Assembly (NCBI GenBank): GCA_016928115.1
Contig: JAFGLI010000003.1
Span: 1 to 33,487 of the forward strand
Direction: 5' to 3'
Source of the DNA: Candidatus Woesearchaeota archaeon
GTDB taxonomy: Archaea; Nanobdellota; Nanobdellia; Woesearchaeales; UBA9642
Length of the DNA: 33,487 nt
In this document: piece after piece, positions 1-14,151 of the stretch
Layout: the number at the start of each line of letters is the position of its first letter
Position numbering within the stretch: the first letter of the stretch is position 1
Notes under the pieces: model-generated
Told to the model about the DNA's origin: nothing
What the model saw: the letters and a program-made list of their open reading frames with translations, nothing else
The model's database searches: none
Translations under genes and position numbers: made by a program

Positions 1-1625
1 AAACTGCTTTTTACTCCTGCTCCAAAATGGCTAAATGCTATTTGAGGAAGTGAAACAACTGCTTCTATTTGTGCGTGTTCCATTAAGAAATCTCTAACAT
101 ATTGTAAAGACGAATTTGTTAAAATTCCATCGGGTAAAACTATTGCCATTTTTCCTGTTCCTGCTTTCAAAAAATCTAAACATCTTTCAATATACAAAAT
201 TTCTGTTTTTTGATTTTTCTTATTTTCTCCTAGTTTATACTTTCCTAAATAATCATGTTCAGTTGATTTAACTGTTGCCCCAAATGGTGGATTAGTTAAA
301 ATAATGTCAAACTTATTTTTTCCAAAACCTTGATGAATTTCTGAAATCTCATTTACCTTTCTTAAAGAATCAGTACTTATAATATTTGTATGACCATCAT
401 CATGGATAATCATATTCATTTTACAGACACGGGCTATTTGGTCATTTATTTCAATTCCATAAAGGTTATCTTTTGCAAAATCGTGCCACATTCTAAAATG
501 TTCTTCTGGGCTGTCTGGAAATTCTTTATCAGCTAATTCTCTTACATAATCCATAGCATTAAGCAAAAATCCTCCACTACCACAAGCAGGATCTAAAATA
601 AGTTTATCTTCTTCTGGTTCTAACATTTTAACAGCGAATTGAATAATTTCACGAGGAGTGAAAAATTGCCCCATTTTTCCTTTAAAAAAATCTTCCATAA
701 ATCGCTCAAAAGCAAAACCTTTGGTATCTAAATCAGTTTTATTAAAATTAATACTTTGTAAATGCTCAACTACTCCATAAACTACTTTTGGATTTAGTCG
801 TATATCTTCCTTAAAGACTTCCGCATCTTTAGTTTTTGCATATTGGTATATTTTATCAATTCTTTTAAAAACTTCTTCTGGTGTTTCGTGCGTTCCAATT
901 TGAAATTTATATGGCTCTCCTTTTTTAGTTACAGTTCGCTCTTTTTCTTCCTGTAGTTTGCAAAAAAGAAGTTTTGAAATTTCATCAAAAGCAGTAGTTG
1001 GAGATAACTTTCCTCCTTGCCAAACAGTATCATGTGCTTTATCTAAAACCCTAATCAAATCATCACGAGAAACAAGTTTTAAATCTCTTTCAGTATCCCC
1101 TTTGATAAATTTATATTTTGGTGCTTTTCCATATCGTTCTGGAATATCAGCAATAACATTTTTTTCTCTTTCTCTTTGAGTAAATCCTGCAACATCAAAA
1201 GCAGTTCTTGTTGTTCCTGCAACAACTATTGCATATTTTGCTCTCTTGCTGTTTGCATTTCCAAATGCTTGTTCTATTGCTTGTTTAAACTCTGCATCAG
1301 TTATGCCATCTTTTTTACATTCAACAACTAAATAATTATGTCCCTTTTCATCATAAACAACAATATCTGCTCTATCATCAGGTACTCTTCGCTCAACTTT
1401 TACTTCAATATCAATATTCTCTTTAGGATATTTTTTATCTAAAACCAACTCTACAAAATAAGAAGCCCTTACTTTTTCTTCTGGATTTGTAAATGTTGTA
1501 GAATATTCTCTTTTACAGAAATAAGTAATTCTTTTTTTATCATCAGAAAGTTTAATTATTTTTTCTTTAATCCCTCTTTCAACATTTTCCATAAATATTG
1601 TGGCATTATTATTTTTTTCAGTCAT
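1..1625 (-). CDS. N6-adenine DNA methyltransferase with N-terminal HsdR_N-like PD-(D/E)XK nuclease domain (type I / IIG-like restriction-modification), 3' end beyond left edge
   Basis: Not in the ORF track because it is open at the left edge. My own minus-strand translation from the ATG at 1625 gives MTEKNNNATIFMENVERGIKEKI..., a nuclease-like motif ADIVVYDEKGHNYLVVECKK, MTase motif I DPACGSGGFLLNAM and motif IV NPPFG. Confidence 0.85.
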   Translation of the reverse strand, partial: MTEKNNNATIFMENVERGIKEKIIKLSDDKKRITYFCKREYSTTFTNPEEKVRASYFVELVLDKKYPKENIDIEVKVERRVPDDRADIVVYDEKGHNYLVVECKKDGITDAEFKQAIEQAFGNANSKRAKYAIVVAGTTRTAFDVAGFTQREREKNVIADIPERYGKAPKYKFIKGDTERDLKLVSRDDLIRVLDKAHDTVWQGGKLSPTTAFDEISKLLFCKLQEEKERTVTKKGEPYKFQIGTHETPEEVFKRIDKIYQYAKTKDAEVFKEDIRLNPKVVYGVVEHLQSINFNKTDLDTKGFAFERFMEDFFKGKMGQFFTPREIIQFAVKMLEPEEDKLILDPACGSGGFLLNAMDYVRELADKEFPDSPEEHFRMWHDFAKDNLYGIEINDQIARVCKMNMIIHDDGHTNIISTDSLRKVNEISEIHQGFGKNKFDIILTNPPFGATVKSTEHDYLGKYKLGENKKNQKTEILYIERCLDFLKAGTGKMAIVLPDGILTNSSLQYVRDFLMEHAQIEAVVSLPQIAFSHFGAGVKSS

Positions 1626-1692
1626 ATTAACCCCCTCTTGTAAGAAAATATTATTTACTTATAAATATTTTTATAAAAACAACAATCTAATC

Positions 1693-2076
1693 CTAAAAAG
1701 CCCTTCCTTTCAGCCCAATAGCATAAATCCCGTTCTTCTTTATCCTTTCTTTATAGCCAGGAAAAGAATGGTAAATCTTTATGCCTTCCTCAACAGAATT
1801 TACTCCTGGAAGGACTCTGTCCAGGTATTCAGAATCCAGCATTTCCTGCACAGAAGCATATTTCCTGTTATAATCGATAAAGAAGTTTATTTCAGGCAGG
1901 TTTTCAATTTTTTTATAATTCTCATCAACTGCATAGAATACTGCAATATCCAATGCCTTAATATTAGAATAATTCTTGGAAGGCTTTGAAACATCCGGAA
2001 CCCTGCCCTCTACTTCTTTGATTCCATTATCAATTAATTCATACCATCTCTCTGCCACAGGAAATATCCAGTCCAT
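1693..2076 (-). CDS. ASCH domain (PUA-like) protein
   Basis: RWYELIDNGIKEVEGRV near the N-terminus and GYKERIKKNGIYAIGLK at the C-terminus are typical of ASCH domains. Confidence 0.6.
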   Translation of the reverse strand: MDWIFPVAERWYELIDNGIKEVEGRVPDVSKPSKNYSNIKALDIAVFYAVDENYKKIENLPEINFFIDYNRKYASVQEMLDSEYLDRVLPGVNSVEEGIKIYHSFPGYKERIKKNGIYAIGLKGRAF

Positions 2077-2214
2077 AGAATAAGGGAATTTAAGGGATTA
2101 TATAAATTTTACTTATTGTCTTAATAGTTACGCTTCGCTTCACCCAAATTTTCCAGAATTATTTATGTAAGGCTCTCTCGTTAGGAAACATTATAAATAA
2201 GCTATTATTATAAT

Positions 2215-5208
2215 ATGAATATGGTGCATTATATAGATTCAATTGGAGAATTTCGCTCACTATTAGATTATTATATCTCCTGTCTAGAGAAAGAGGACAT
2301 ATTATCACTTACTTTTAACTACAGATTAGAGGGTAAAAAATTTCATTCAAATATTTTCAAAAAAGAACAATTTTTCTCAGAGAAAAAAGAACAGATTGTA
2401 ATTAAGAAAACTCCTGAAGTTGAAAATATTTTCAAAAACTATAAACTTCTTCAGAGAAATATGCCTGTTTTCTATGGCTACCCTTTATTCATGGATTCTA
2501 ATGGAAATGTTAGCCCTGTTTTCTTTGTTGAAATTTTCTTTGAAGAAAAAGAGGATTCTATTATTCTTACTAAAGAATCTGTAGTTCCAGAATTCAATCA
2601 TTATATCCTGACAAAACATGATTATAATGTAGAGGAGATAAATAAACTTCGCTTAGAAATTGAGGAAGAAGATGATTTTGCGGTTAAACTTCAAAAAATA
2701 ACTGAATTGCTTAATCTTGATAAGAAAACCATCACTTCTGAACTTGAACAAAAACCATTAATGGTAAAACCCTTATCTCAATTAATAAACAAAGCAATTT
2801 TATATTTTGGTGGGAGAATGGGCTTTACTAGGGGATTGGTAGATGAACTACAAAAACTAAAAAAGTTGTCTCAACATCAATTAGAATCAACATCATTAGG
2901 AATTTTGTTTAATAAGGAAAAACATGAAATATCAGAAAACAAAAAAGATCTTCTGGAGATATTTAATCTAAATGAATCCCAAGAAAAAGCAGTCAAGAAT
3001 GCCTTTTCAAATAATATTAGTGTTATTACTGGGCCACCAGGCACAGGAAAATCTCAAGTTGTTCTTAATATTGTGGCAAATGCTGTTTGGAATGATAAAA
3101 ACGTATTATTCGCAAGTAAAAATAACCGAGCAGTAGATGTGGTAAACGAGAAACTTAAAACAATTTTATCTAAAGACTTAATTGTGAGAATGGGTTCCAG
3201 TAAACACAGGAAAAACGCTAAATTACAAATTTATAAGCTCTTCCAAAACAAAAATTCCATAAAAATATCTTCAAACTTTGAAAATGATGTTGAAAAAATA
3301 AATAATATCAACAAAGAAGTAAACGCTCTTAAAGATCAATTGGAAGATATGTCTAAAACCAATGAAGAGATTGAAGAACTACAAAATCAAGCCGATACCA
3401 TGGCAAAAGATATTCCTGAAAAACTTTATAACCAATGCAAAAATGACATATTTGAGAAAATCAATAAATTTGCAGTAGAAAGTGACATAAAAAATAATTT
3501 TGAAAACACAGGTTTAATTAAGAAAATAATTAAGATGTTTTTTCCCTCATTCTACCAACGAAAAGAACAAGCAATTTTCAAAAAATATTATGACCTTTTA
3601 AGTGATAATTTTAGAAGATATTTGGACAAAAATATTAAACTCGCTTCTCAAGAGATAAAAAATTCGTTGAGTTGGATTTTGCTCTTTAAACAAGTTGAAC
3701 TCTTAAGAAAAGAAATTGATAATTTGAAACACAAGTTAGCAAAATCTGATTCTATTTATACTTTACAATCTAAAATAGCCAAATATCAAGAAGAAAAAAT
3801 AAAATTATCAAGAAGCATATTCGAAAATTATTGGTTTAAAAAACTAAAGAAAACCTCTTCTTCTGATGAAAACCATGTTTCTAGATATATAGATGCCTCA
3901 GAAAAACTGGAAAGATACATTGAGGATTATTCTTTATGGAGACAATTAGTAGGAGAACAAGAAAACGAAATTCAAGAGATTTTATCTTTCCTTCCAATTT
4001 GGGTTGTAACTAATCTTTCAGCAAAAAATAGCGTTCCTTTAAAAGAGAATCTTTTTGATTTGTTAATCATTGATGAAGCCTCACAGTGCGATATTGCCTC
4101 TGCTTTACCATTATTTTATAGAGCCAAACAGGCAGTAATTATTGGTGATCCTAAACAATTGAAACATATTTCATTACTTAGAGAGACAGAAGATAAAAAA
4201 ATCGCTTCCCAAAATAAAATTTCTGAGTTGTACTTAGATTATGCTTATAGTAAAAATTCTCTTTATGATATTGCAGAAAGAACAATCAAAAGCAAGAAGA
4301 AATCGCCAATTTTATTAAACAAACATTATCGTTCCTACAAAGATATCATTAATTTTTCCAACGAATATTTTTATGATAAAAAATTAAACATAATGACTGA
4401 TGAGAGCAAATTAATTCCTGATAAAGTTTATCCAAGAGGAGTCAAATGGATTGATATTCGTGGAAAAACTAGCAAAACAAAAAGCCCCTATAACAAAGAA
4501 GAAGCAATTAGGATAATAAATATTCTCAAAAGTTTTAAAAAATCAAAATTAAAGAAAATTTCTTTTGGAATCGTTACTTTGTTTAGGGCTCAAATGGAAT
4601 TAATTGCCGATATGACTAGAAAAACAAAAGAATTGAAAAATATGGATATTACAGTAGGAACAACACATAGATTTCAGGGAGATGAAAAAGATATAATCAT
4701 CTTTTCTCCAGCAATATCACAAGATGTTAAGCAAAAAACACTTAACTGGATTCATAATACCACGCAATTGTTGAATGTGGCTATTACAAGAGCAAGAAGT
4801 GTTCTCCTGATTGTTGGGGATAAGAAAAAATGTCGTGAGGCAGGAGGTTTTCTTAAAAGTTTAGAAGAATATGCAGAATCTAAGAGAGAAATAGATATTA
4901 ATTTTGATTCCCCTGTCGAAGAAAAATTATTCAAATTACTAATGAAAGAGGGGGTTAAAATTCTTCCTCAATATGAAACTAAAATAAGAGGTAAAAAACC
5001 TTATAGGCTTGATTTTGCTTTGTTCATAAATGACAATAAATATGATGTTGAAGTTGATGGTGATAAAGCCCATTCTCAAAAAATTGAATCTGACATTTTA
5101 CGAGATATTCATCTTAGAATGGATGGCTGGAAAGTAAGAAGATTTCAGGTGAGCGAAATTAATAATAATATTAATAAAGTTATGGAAGAGATTAAAAGAC
5201 TTTGTTAA
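2215..5208 (+). CDS. UPF1/DNA2-type superfamily 1 helicase with C-terminal Vsr/DUF559 (MTES_1575)-like endonuclease domain
   Basis: Walker A GPPGTGKSQ, Walker B LLIIDEASQCD, VIIGDPKQLKHIS, GTTHRFQGDEKDIIIF, LNVAITRARSVLLIVGD. The C-terminal segment SPVEEKLFKLLMKEG...PYRLDFALFINDNKYDVEVDGDKAHSQ...RDIHLRMDGWKVRRF is Vsr-like. Confidence 0.88.
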   Translation: MNMVHYIDSIGEFRSLLDYYISCLEKEDILSLTFNYRLEGKKFHSNIFKKEQFFSEKKEQIVIKKTPEVENIFKNYKLLQRNMPVFYGYPLFMDSNGNVSPVFFVEIFFEEKEDSIILTKESVVPEFNHYILTKHDYNVEEINKLRLEIEEEDDFAVKLQKITELLNLDKKTITSELEQKPLMVKPLSQLINKAILYFGGRMGFTRGLVDELQKLKKLSQHQLESTSLGILFNKEKHEISENKKDLLEIFNLNESQEKAVKNAFSNNISVITGPPGTGKSQVVLNIVANAVWNDKNVLFASKNNRAVDVVNEKLKTILSKDLIVRMGSSKHRKNAKLQIYKLFQNKNSIKISSNFENDVEKINNINKEVNALKDQLEDMSKTNEEIEELQNQADTMAKDIPEKLYNQCKNDIFEKINKFAVESDIKNNFENTGLIKKIIKMFFPSFYQRKEQAIFKKYYDLLSDNFRRYLDKNIKLASQEIKNSLSWILLFKQVELLRKEIDNLKHKLAKSDSIYTLQSKIAKYQEEKIKLSRSIFENYWFKKLKKTSSSDENHVSRYIDASEKLERYIEDYSLWRQLVGEQENEIQEILSFLPIWVVTNLSAKNSVPLKENLFDLLIIDEASQCDIASALPLFYRAKQAVIIGDPKQLKHISLLRETEDKKIASQNKISELYLDYAYSKNSLYDIAERTIKSKKKSPILLNKHYRSYKDIINFSNEYFYDKKLNIMTDESKLIPDKVYPRGVKWIDIRGKTSKTKSPYNKEEAIRIINILKSFKKSKLKKISFGIVTLFRAQMELIADMTRKTKELKNMDITVGTTHRFQGDEKDIIIFSPAISQDVKQKTLNWIHNTTQLLNVAITRARSVLLIVGDKKKCREAGGFLKSLEEYAESKREIDINFDSPVEEKLFKLLMKEGVKILPQYETKIRGKKPYRLDFALFINDNKYDVEVDGDKAHSQKIESDILRDIHLRMDGWKVRRFQVSEINNNINKVMEEIKRLC

Positions 5209-5333
5209 CGAGAGAACCCTTATTCTTAACTTTACTCTGGAAAACTACGACACCAATAGATTTTTGGTGGCTTAAAAACTCCGCAGACCATCAAAGGTCT
5301 GCTACATATAACAAAAATCTAACAATCCACCTT

Positions 5334-5801
5334 CTAAACCATTTCTTTTGTCTCATCAAAATATAGAAGTGGAAAATATTTTTCATATTTTTCTGATGTT
5401 GTAAGAAATATTGATTTATCAGCATCATATAATATTTTTCCTTCTTTTATTTTTGAATCTCCAAGTTTTCTTCGATAAGTCGTAGAATGATCAAGCATAA
5501 TTTGTTTTATTTTTATTATTCGTTCATTAGGATAATTATTTTTCTTCAAAAACTCTTCAGCTTTTTTTATACTATTTTCAACATGATTCTTATAATTTTC
5601 TTTATATGTTTTTTCAGAATTATAATCAATGTCATGAAAAATAACTCCTAATTTCAATAACTCAAAATCAACATTTTTTAATTTGTTTGCAATTTCCAAT
5701 GCTCTTTTCATTACATTCTCAACATGAGTCCATTGATGAAAAGAATCATTTTTCTCATATTCTTTCTTTGCAAACAATATTGCTTTCTCAATTATGTCCA
5801 T
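5334..5801 (-). CDS. HD superfamily phosphohydrolase
   Basis: HQWTHVENVMKRALEIAN...LLKLGVIFHDIDY matches the H...HD metal-binding pattern. Confidence 0.8.
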   Translation of the reverse strand: MDIIEKAILFAKKEYEKNDSFHQWTHVENVMKRALEIANKLKNVDFELLKLGVIFHDIDYNSEKTYKENYKNHVENSIKKAEEFLKKNNYPNERIIKIKQIMLDHSTTYRRKLGDSKIKEGKILYDADKSIFLTTSEKYEKYFPLLYFDETKEMV

Positions 5802-5911
5802 AATAAAAAGATTATATGAATCTTAATAAATCTATCGAAGAACACCAAATTTTCCCTTTGCTATCATGCTTTTTAGGGTAAAAAAATCCTGCATTTAAAG
5901 TCCCAGAAAAC

Positions 5912-6157
5912 TTATTTATATACATCCTTTCTATGGTCAAAACAATTAATTATGATGCTGTTTTTCTCAATTCTGTAAATGATCCTAAATGGAGGGATTC
6001 TTATACTCCGATGACCTTTTAGTTTATATTTTAAAGGTTTTCCTGATTCCGGAAGTTGCTCTAATTTCTTAAGATGTTTAATTAATTTCAACCTTGTTTG
6101 TTTATCCTTAATCCTCTTAAACTCCTTTCTGAATTCCTCAGAAAATATTATCTGCAT
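5912..6157 (-). CDS. RelE/ParE-family toxin
   Basis: 81 aa: IIFSEEFRKEFKRIKDKQTRLKLIKHLKKLEQLPESGKPLKYKLKGHRSIRIPPFRIIYRIEKNSIIINCFDHRKDVYK is a RelE-like fold signature (R..R..YRI...I.....HR..VY). Confidence 0.85.
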   Translation of the reverse strand: MQIIFSEEFRKEFKRIKDKQTRLKLIKHLKKLEQLPESGKPLKYKLKGHRSIRIPPFRIIYRIEKNSIIINCFDHRKDVYK

Positions 6158-6194
6158 TTTATCCTCAAGAGATGTTTAGGACACCAGCGATTTC

Positions 6195-6470
6195 TCAATG
6201 CATCAATAAATCATCAATTTCTTCATCAGCCATTTTAGTATCTGCTTTAACAAATCTTCCTTTTTTTATTTCATCTTCACTTCTTCTGATTTTGTCCATT
6301 AACATCATATCATCTCTAAGAGATTCTTTTCTGATTTGTTTCAAAAAAATATTTCCATCTTCATTAAACACAAGAAACTGTGTTGATGGTTTTACGCCTG
6401 CATCTTTCCTAACTTCAGATGGTATTACAACTTGCCCATTCCGGGATATTTTGGTTATAGCAACTTCCAT
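6195..6470 (-). CDS. AbrB/SpoVT/MazE-family antitoxin
   Basis: TKISRNGQVVIPSEVRKDAGVKPSTQFLVFNEDGNIFLKQI is an AbrB swapped-hairpin motif. It lies directly upstream of the RelE-like toxin on the same strand. Confidence 0.85.
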   Translation of the reverse strand: MEVAITKISRNGQVVIPSEVRKDAGVKPSTQFLVFNEDGNIFLKQIRKESLRDDMMLMDKIRRSEDEIKKGRFVKADTKMADEEIDDLLMH

Positions 6471-6481
6471 TTTATATCACC

Positions 6482-6513
6482 TACAATACATTTTAATATT
6501 AAAACATATTGTA
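6482..6513. promoter_or_regulatory. 32-bp near-perfect palindrome, candidate antitoxin operator
   Basis: TACAATAcaTTTTAATATTAAAAcaTATTGTA, with 14 of 16 position pairs complementary, ends 11 bp upstream of the AbrB-like start codon. Confidence 0.6.
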
Positions 6514-6549
6514 TATATAAACTTTTCGGTTTTTGGGGCTTTAATCCAT

Positions 6550-6615
6550 GTGCTGGCAGGTTTTTGCAAAAAATCCTCACTCAATAACTCTCCTCAACAC
6601 AGGAGAAACAAAAAG
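6550..6615 (+). pseudogene. Possible relic of a surface-protein gene related to the ORF at 10369..13737
   Basis: gtgctggcaggtttttgcaaaa (6550..6571) is a 22-nt exact reverse-complement match to 13378..13399. Read in frame from 6551 it gives CWQVFAKNPHSITLLNTGETKSQ*, versus CWQVFAKQPHLNRYVQ in the intact ORF. Confidence 0.35.
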
Positions 6616-6649
6616 TCAATAATAATCTACAGTTAAGAAAACCTCCTTT

Positions 6650-6946
6650 TTAAAGAACTCTTTTTTTGTCTTCATCAATAATGTCCATAATAAGCTTCTC
6701 TACCTTTATACCTCGAAGCTCAGCTAAAGCAATTAGATGTATGAGAGAATCTCCTATTGCATTATCAAGTTTTTCATCACTGAATTTATCCTTCCTTATA
6801 TCTCTACTAACAAATTCTCTTGCTAATTCTCCTACCTCTTCAACAATATGATTAAATGTTGTTTGTTCAGAATCCGGAAAACCTCTCTTTTTTTCCCACA
6901 TTTTCATAAATTCAATGATTTCTTTCTGAAATTTATCAACTTCCAT
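6650..6946 (-). CDS. MazG-like nucleotide pyrophosphohydrolase
   Basis: NHIVEEVGELAREFVSRD...DNAIGDSLIHLIALAELRGI follows the MazG ExxE...ExxD-like helical pattern. I prefer the internal ATG at 6946 (MEVDKFQKEI) as the start. Confidence 0.7.
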   Translation of the reverse strand: MEVDKFQKEIIEFMKMWEKKRGFPDSEQTTFNHIVEEVGELAREFVSRDIRKDKFSDEKLDNAIGDSLIHLIALAELRGIKVEKLIMDIIDEDKKRVL

Positions 6947-7060
6947 AAATAACAAATAAATCATCAATATTAATAAACCTTTCCAAAACCATTTATATAT
7001 CCAATTCTCATTATAAAAAAATCGATAAAATATTTAAATTATTTTAGTTTAAATTTATTA

Positions 7061-7771
7061 ATGAGCAGCTTATTGGATAAAATAATAGAAAATGAAAAGA
7101 CTGAATCCAGGGAAATTATTAATTACCTTCTTGATGTGCCGCATGATTCAATAGATTCAGCATTACATATAGCCCATGCAATAAAATCCGGATTATGTTT
7201 CCCTTATTTCCCGGCAATGTTATTAAATAAAAAAGGAGTTATATTCAAACTGGATGAAGACGACCTTACTAATTATCCTAATGAAGACTTTGGAAAAGAT
7301 ATTGAACAATGCAGTTCTCTACAATATTTAACAGAAGATCCTTGTTTGTATATTAATAATGGTCCTAAAATAGCCATACAAAATCCTGAAATTGAAAAAT
7401 CAACTTTCAAAAGAAGAATACAAGAATTCTCATCAATCAACTCCTATGAATTAGGATGTATAGTCGATATAAAATTATATAAATCACAAACTGAAGACTT
7501 ATCTTTGCCGAATCCTTCAAAGTGTAAAGGAAGTGAAATTATGGGCTCATGGCTTTATAAATCTGATATATTAAAATGGCCTTTTATATTAGAAAAAAAA
7601 CATTGTGAAAGATTTAAATCACATTTTAATAATGTCCCGGGCATGAAAATTTACTATCCTGATTACAGTTTTTGTCATTTTGAAAAAACAGATGAAAAAG
7701 AAATTAAAGATTTTAAAAAATATTTCTCTGAAAAAGTAGAGCCAAAATTAAAAGAAATATTAGACAGATAA
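7061..7771 (+). CDS. Hypothetical protein
   Basis: 236-aa ORF with archaeal-like AT-rich upstream region. No family recognised. Confidence 0.6.
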   Translation: MSSLLDKIIENEKTESREIINYLLDVPHDSIDSALHIAHAIKSGLCFPYFPAMLLNKKGVIFKLDEDDLTNYPNEDFGKDIEQCSSLQYLTEDPCLYINNGPKIAIQNPEIEKSTFKRRIQEFSSINSYELGCIVDIKLYKSQTEDLSLPNPSKCKGSEIMGSWLYKSDILKWPFILEKKHCERFKSHFNNVPGMKIYYPDYSFCHFEKTDEKEIKDFKKYFSEKVEPKLKEILDR

Positions 7772-7801
7772 TTGGTTCCGGAATGGTAAATCTTAAGAAC
7801 A

Positions 7802-13827: not shown

Positions 13828-14151
13828 TTAATCTTTAAGAACATTTAATTTTTTGACCAGTTCATTAAAAACTTTTTTCTTCTTTTCACGGCTTAAATGA
13901 AACAAATTCTTATAAATCATATTTCTGGAAACAGTAAATATATAATTAAGCTTTATAACACTGTCTTTTATTGCTCCCTCTTTTTTAGTCAAATCTATCC
14001 CTTCCATCTCAGTATTGCTTGTTATTCCCGCAACAACAAAATTATTGAATTCCTCAAACAAAACAATAGCCGGCCTTTTTTTTATTTTAAAACTATCTGC
14101 AAACTGTATTCTTGTTAAAACAATATCCCCTGGCTTGAATATATCTGACAT
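13828..14151 (-). CDS. PemK/MazF-like toxin
   Basis: FKPGDIVLTRIQFADSFKIKKRPAIVLFEE...VVAGITSN is a typical MazF-like N-terminal strand pattern. It follows a small antitoxin gene. Confidence 0.8.
   Translation of the reverse strand: MSDIFKPGDIVLTRIQFADSFKIKKRPAIVLFEEFNNFVVAGITSNTEMEGIDLTKKEGAIKDSVIKLNYIFTVSRNMIYKNLFHLSREKKKKVFNELVKKLNVLKD

Follow-up and report, generated by a model that had tools for sequence, protein, structure and literature searches.

The window analysed here, the whole 33,487-nucleotide stretch of contig JAFGLI010000003.1 from a Candidatus Woesearchaeota archaeon, carries a gene for a helicase-nuclease that we consider likely to be a horizontally exchanged, stand-alone protein, probably used by DPANN archaea as an effector against viruses or plasmids, while the imperfect inverted repeats flanking it most likely reflect a chance pairing of promoter-side sequence with an inherited 3' flank rather than the termini of a mobile unit. 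In place of a tempting transposon-like reading, this leaves a compact, stand-alone fusion of helicase and Vsr nuclease that moves among archaea with small genomes, and the cross-lineage exchange of its coiled-coil insertion points to a segment that may set specificity. In DPANN archaea, few CRISPR and restriction systems and many compact single-gene candidates are found (survey, PMC12988326).

The gene and the parts of its product are located as follows (window positions).

2221..5208, + strand: helicase-nuclease gene, 995 aa (Pfam AAA_11, AAA_12 and DUF559), with start and stop aligned with those of homologues.
3031..3054, + strand: Walker A motif GPPGTGKS of an SF1 helicase (Pfam AAA_11/AAA_19).
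3271..3990, + strand: helical insertion resembling a coiled coil, placed between the two Walker motifs, with long helices in the model; part of it comes in a short or a long form among the homologues.
4066..4800, + strand: helicase motifs II to VI (IIDEASQCD, GDPKQL, HYRS, HRFQGDEKD and NVAITRARS; Pfam AAA_12).
4882..5205, + strand: C-terminal Vsr/DUF559-type PD-(D/E)XK nuclease domain, recognized by Pfam, invariant residues and fold.

In the alignment, the starts of the homologues fall on the ATG at 2221, and another in-frame ATG is located at 2215. With Walker A, Walker B and motifs III to VI of the AAA_11/AAA_12 type, the protein has the features of an SF1 UPF1-like helicase, to which the solved structures of UPF1, Sen1 and SMUBP-2 are near by sequence, and the helicase core also matches IGHMBP2. 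The inserted segment comprises ~240 residues and is helical in the predicted structure, which is of low confidence outside this segment (the whole-protein model is poor, pLDDT 51), and the N-terminal ~230 residues, which match no Pfam family, may be a recognition part. At the nuclease end, DUF559 scores 32.7 bits, above its cut-off of 20.6, and MTES_1575 scores 32.9 bits, below its cut-off of 38.2. Moreover, the residues E, LDFA, ExDG, H, D and R are invariant across eight homologues, and the model of this domain (pLDDT 88) matches the catalytic domain of I-Bth0305I and a DUF559-like protein. Judged by its motifs and its predicted fold, this end is a Vsr/DUF559-type nuclease with intact catalytic motifs.

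The surroundings of the gene contain four features that bear on the question of a moved unit.

2149..2183, + strand: left arm of the imperfect inverted repeat (2168-2183 in the preliminary description), obtained by composition-weighted alignment and missing at five homologous loci.
5206..5244, - strand: right arm of the imperfect inverted repeat (5206-5222 in the preliminary description), starting with the stop codon and likewise obtained by composition-weighted alignment.
2181..2200, + strand: probable archaeal BRE/TATA promoter, TTAGGAAACATTATAAATAA, overlapping the inner end of the left arm.
5209..5264, + strand: 3' tail common to the window and the G138 locus, extending beyond the outer end of the right arm.

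Both arms are present as first described: window positions 2168-2183 read TAAGGCTCTCTCGTTA, the reverse complement of 5206-5222 reads TAAGGGTTCTCTCGTTA, and the stop codon TAA of the gene, at 5206-5208, is part of the right arm. In an alignment weighting G and C the arms lengthen outward, weakly and with gaps, to 2149-2183 and 5206-5244. The exact 10-nt core TCTCTCGTTA has two copies in the 774-kb genome, both at this gene; from base composition 1.5 occurrences are expected, and the reversed-pattern control yields four.

Searching the order (353 genomes), the class (378) and the phylum (371), in samples that overlap, we found homologues of the helicase-nuclease gene in very few genomes, with five loci including both gene ends (G582, G583, L016/G168, G138 and G173; 79% to 61% aa identity). 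Identity to the window protein is 79% in G582, 68% in L016/G168 and 61-64% in G138, and for the homologues that lie in pieces on two contigs each it is 69-78% (G583) and 62-65% (G173). None of these five loci has an inverted repeat above shuffles, which is the very outcome, the gene without its termini, that the preliminary description had named as speaking against its proposal. The locus in G173 keeps the right-arm core, TAACGAGAGA, after its stop codon, without any left arm, the one in G138 is devoid of the right-arm core, and in G399, represented by the 3' gene end only, the right arm is likewise missing. The limits of the shared DNA differ from locus to locus. For the closest relative, G582, blastn similarity spans 2217 to 5208, from start to stop codon, with unrelated flanks, and the DNA shared with L016 begins at 2181, inside the promoter, and stops at 5208. 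In G138 the similarity reaches as far as ~5264, with 80% identity across 65 nt (E = 1.3e-9), and the stretch beyond 5222 alone reaches a score that none of 500 shuffles attained. Since none of the DNA shared with G582, L016 or G138 ends at an arm, the arms do not mark the bounds of a moved unit, and the earlier proposal that the repeats delimit a moved or excisable unit is not supported, as sharing stops at the start and stop codons in one relative and runs past the right arm in another.

These limits also weigh on a related explanation, in which 2149-5244 would be a small non-autonomous element of about 3.1 kb, with the arms as its terminal inverted repeats, the helicase-nuclease as its sole cargo and its mobilizing enzyme encoded elsewhere. 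We regard this as very improbable: the gene is horizontally mobile, the arms bracket it tightly with a 10-nt core found nowhere else in the genome, and the match is the best inverted one among the tested ORFs, but the repeat is missing at the five homologous loci, the G138 similarity passes the outer end of the right arm, the right-arm core in G173 has no left counterpart, a search of the own genome and ten other genomes gave no second copy of the right arm, and no direct duplication of a target site is visible outside 2149 and 5244. No transposase or recombinase adjoins the gene in the window. Rfam has no matches in the window, and a pattern search of viral contigs detected no relative. A clean empty site was not found in the sets searched, where the neighbours of the gene are too poorly matched, the left one (1693-2076) having a homologue in G002 only and the right one (5334-5801) weak homologues only.

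For the repeat statistics, the background comprised 353 kb of this genome, including the window. Exact cores of at least 10 nt joining both gene ends are common (19 out of 253 ORFs). By weighted score the window gene represents the top inverted match among 253 ORFs and is the sole ORF at its score level among 315, and unrelated upstream and downstream pairs reach its score with P = 1.2e-4 in inverted and 1.1e-3 in direct orientation. Per ~800 genes, our estimate for a 774-kb genome, chance alone should give about 0.1 pairs as strong as this one in inverted and 0.9 in direct orientation, so that a nominal P of ~1e-4 for one gene turns, over ~800 genes and both orientations, into about one such match per genome. 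The inverted repeat alone is mildly unusual; with the search taken into account it does not exceed chance expectation, and chance similarity, which the preliminary description had itself allowed for, most likely accounts for it. Given the inner arm as first described, the outer extension adds a P of 0.04-0.05 only, and a word of this extension, TTTTCCAGA, occurs 35 times in the 353 kb.

The left arm adjoins a sequence to which we would assign a function of its own. L016 and G138 carry the motif TTAGRAA.(A)TTAAA equally far from the start, G582 and G583 do not, and 2181..2200 is probably a BRE/TATA promoter, the transcript of which would likely be leaderless. The abutting of the left arm on this probable promoter, the right arm spanning the stop codon and the nominal P of 1.2e-4 might be taken as signs of a lineage-specific site that acts as a pair in regulation or recombination, either an operator occupied at its two ends or a segment able to invert. 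This, too, is quite improbable, considering that the pair is kept in no homologue, not even in L016 and G138, which share the promoter motif, and that an inversion would carry the promoter along and would thus not switch the gene. Pairing of the arms in RNA is unlikely as well, judging from the place of the left arm, probably upstream of the transcription start. The nominal P together with the best rank among the tested ORFs nevertheless leaves some room for a lineage-specific function of the repeat. On the opposite strand, two terminator-like hairpins (5251-5302, - strand) belong to the convergent HD-domain gene, with one T-run overlapping the outer end of the right arm.

The helicase-nuclease gene is missing from five genomes of the same family, and the order search yielded one other genome with a full homologue, at 32% identity. 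G582 and G583 belong to other families of the class and have gene identities of 79% and 78% (for G583, over the C-terminal half), whereas MCM identity is 58% in G582 and 56% in G583, compared with 64-66% in same-family genomes, and the DNA polymerase large subunit reaches 50-59% in G582. Horizontal transfer between distantly related DPANN archaea, by a vehicle that is not visible, is thus well supported by the sequence comparison, owing to the patchy distribution and an identity far above that of core genes. The horizontally moved unit of the preliminary description accordingly stands as far as the gene is concerned and lacks support with regard to the repeats as its bounds. The first 7.8 kb of the window have a GC content of 28-31%, versus 35.6% for the rest of the contig, and window 1-7800 is consistent with an acquired region.

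Amid the low GC of these first 7.8 kb are an HsdM-like gene (3-1625, - strand), coding for an N6-methylase with an N-terminal HSDR_N_2 nuclease-type domain and truncated by the contig end, and toxin-antitoxin-like genes, namely a ParE/MazE-type pair (5912-6470, - strand), a setting that favours our main reading of the helicase-nuclease. A PemK-like toxin gene is located near replication genes (13828-14151, - strand). The 32% homologue (L033, G089 contig 44) is placed on a small contig of 9257 bases together with Prim-Pol and DUF3987 genes, and this contig is possibly viral or mis-binned.

Comparing the homologues along their length, we observed a mosaic structure. In the first 2850 nt of the gene, 269 discriminating sites group the window with G582 and 136 with L016 and G138 (~2:1), whereas in the last ~45 nt the discriminating sites favor L016/G138 over G582 by 9 to 1; for this 3' switch in the site pattern, P is about 4e-4, hand-computed from the counts for a region picked after looking. 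The putative 3' junction would fall near window 5163. The 3' tail, too, is common to the window and G138 and not to G582. A second discordance is seen in the coiled-coil segment, of which the short type has exactly 209 aa in the window, G582, L016 and G399 and the long type at least 331 aa in G138 and G173, and the G583 piece, which starts within the segment, retains at least 247 aa nearest to G173. The coil types cross-cut the C-terminal relationships (homologues in L072, L016, L028, L031, L029 and L017), with C-terminal identities of 86% between the window and G583 and 80% between L016 and G138, and 37% within the coiled-coil segment. The simplest reading of these sequence patterns is that segments were exchanged by recombination between lineages. 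More tentatively, and as a possibility to which we give only modest weight, a single-protein immune effector might spread between DPANN lineages nearly as bare coding sequence, recombining at or near its conserved ends and within its coil, in which case the window copy would be a chimera of a G582-like body and G138/L016-like ends and the coil an exchanged specificity cassette.

The top library matches of the protein are defence helicases, comprising MkoC, PDC-S37 and Hhe in PADLOC as well as ProA and Hhe in NCBIfam, with all NCBIfam scores far under the curated cut-offs. The closest layout is that of CnuH from type III-B CoCoNuTs (eLife 2024, PMC11090510): in both proteins a UPF1-like SF1 motor carries a large helical, coiled-coil segment inserted behind Walker A, with a Vsr-like PD-(D/E)XK nuclease directly fused to the motor. 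However, the window protein stands alone, neither an OB fold nor a wHTH was identified in it, and no CnuB or CnuC neighbours (McrBC homologues) were seen in the window. As no McrC-family gene was found in seven genomes (six with a homologue of at least 62% identity plus the own genome, which is 92% complete), in a search whose model a divergent CnuC could escape, we do not file the protein as a CoCoNuT. Hhe, the DUF4011 helicase anti-phage protein (PDLC02194, NF042953), shares a helicase core of the same superfamily and gives a significant partial match, but the window protein is about half as long, has no DUF4011 match and scores 106 bits against a cut-off of 2000. Of the Mokosh proteins (MkoA, MkoC), MkoC gives the best PADLOC score (220 bits, residues 355-912), yet neither the window protein nor its tested window neighbours have a PLD nuclease, the nuclease here being of the Vsr/DUF559 type; a separate PLD gene lies upstream of the homologue in G173 only, where a PLD-like gene is found directly 5' (L030:8737-9426). 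The anti-phage protein ProA (NF058533) and the PADLOC candidate PDC-S37 give partial matches that take in helicase motifs as well as the nuclease end (residues 553-992 and 576-976, respectively), although their known members are 1550-1903 positions long and ProA scores 186 bits against a cut-off of 1500.

By analogy with these families, and taking its mobility into account, the helicase-nuclease probably acts in defence. Around several homologues the genes are ordinary ones (in G582, for instance, that of ribosomal protein S3Ae), and the case for defence therefore does not draw on a consistent defence island. Such neighbours, and a helicase core matching IGHMBP2, UPF1 and Sen1, would fit a housekeeping helicase-nuclease for DNA or RNA repair. 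We find this explanation unlikely: a housekeeping gene would not be expected to be patchily distributed, to pass between families, to change its neighbours, to encode a Vsr-type nuclease or to exchange its insertion. For a defence effector, we infer both the substrate and the coupling of motor and nuclease: the UPF1-like motor would load onto foreign or aberrant or damaged DNA or RNA, the coiled-coil insertion would act in sensing or coupling, and the tethered Vsr-type nuclease would then cut.

Other genes near the homologues include a LAGLIDADG-like gene directly 3' of the one in G582 (L072:10101-10742) and, no more than a few kb away from the homologue with 68% identity, a YhcG-type PDDEXK nuclease (L016:4789-5769) and a tyrosine recombinase (L016:13546-14847).
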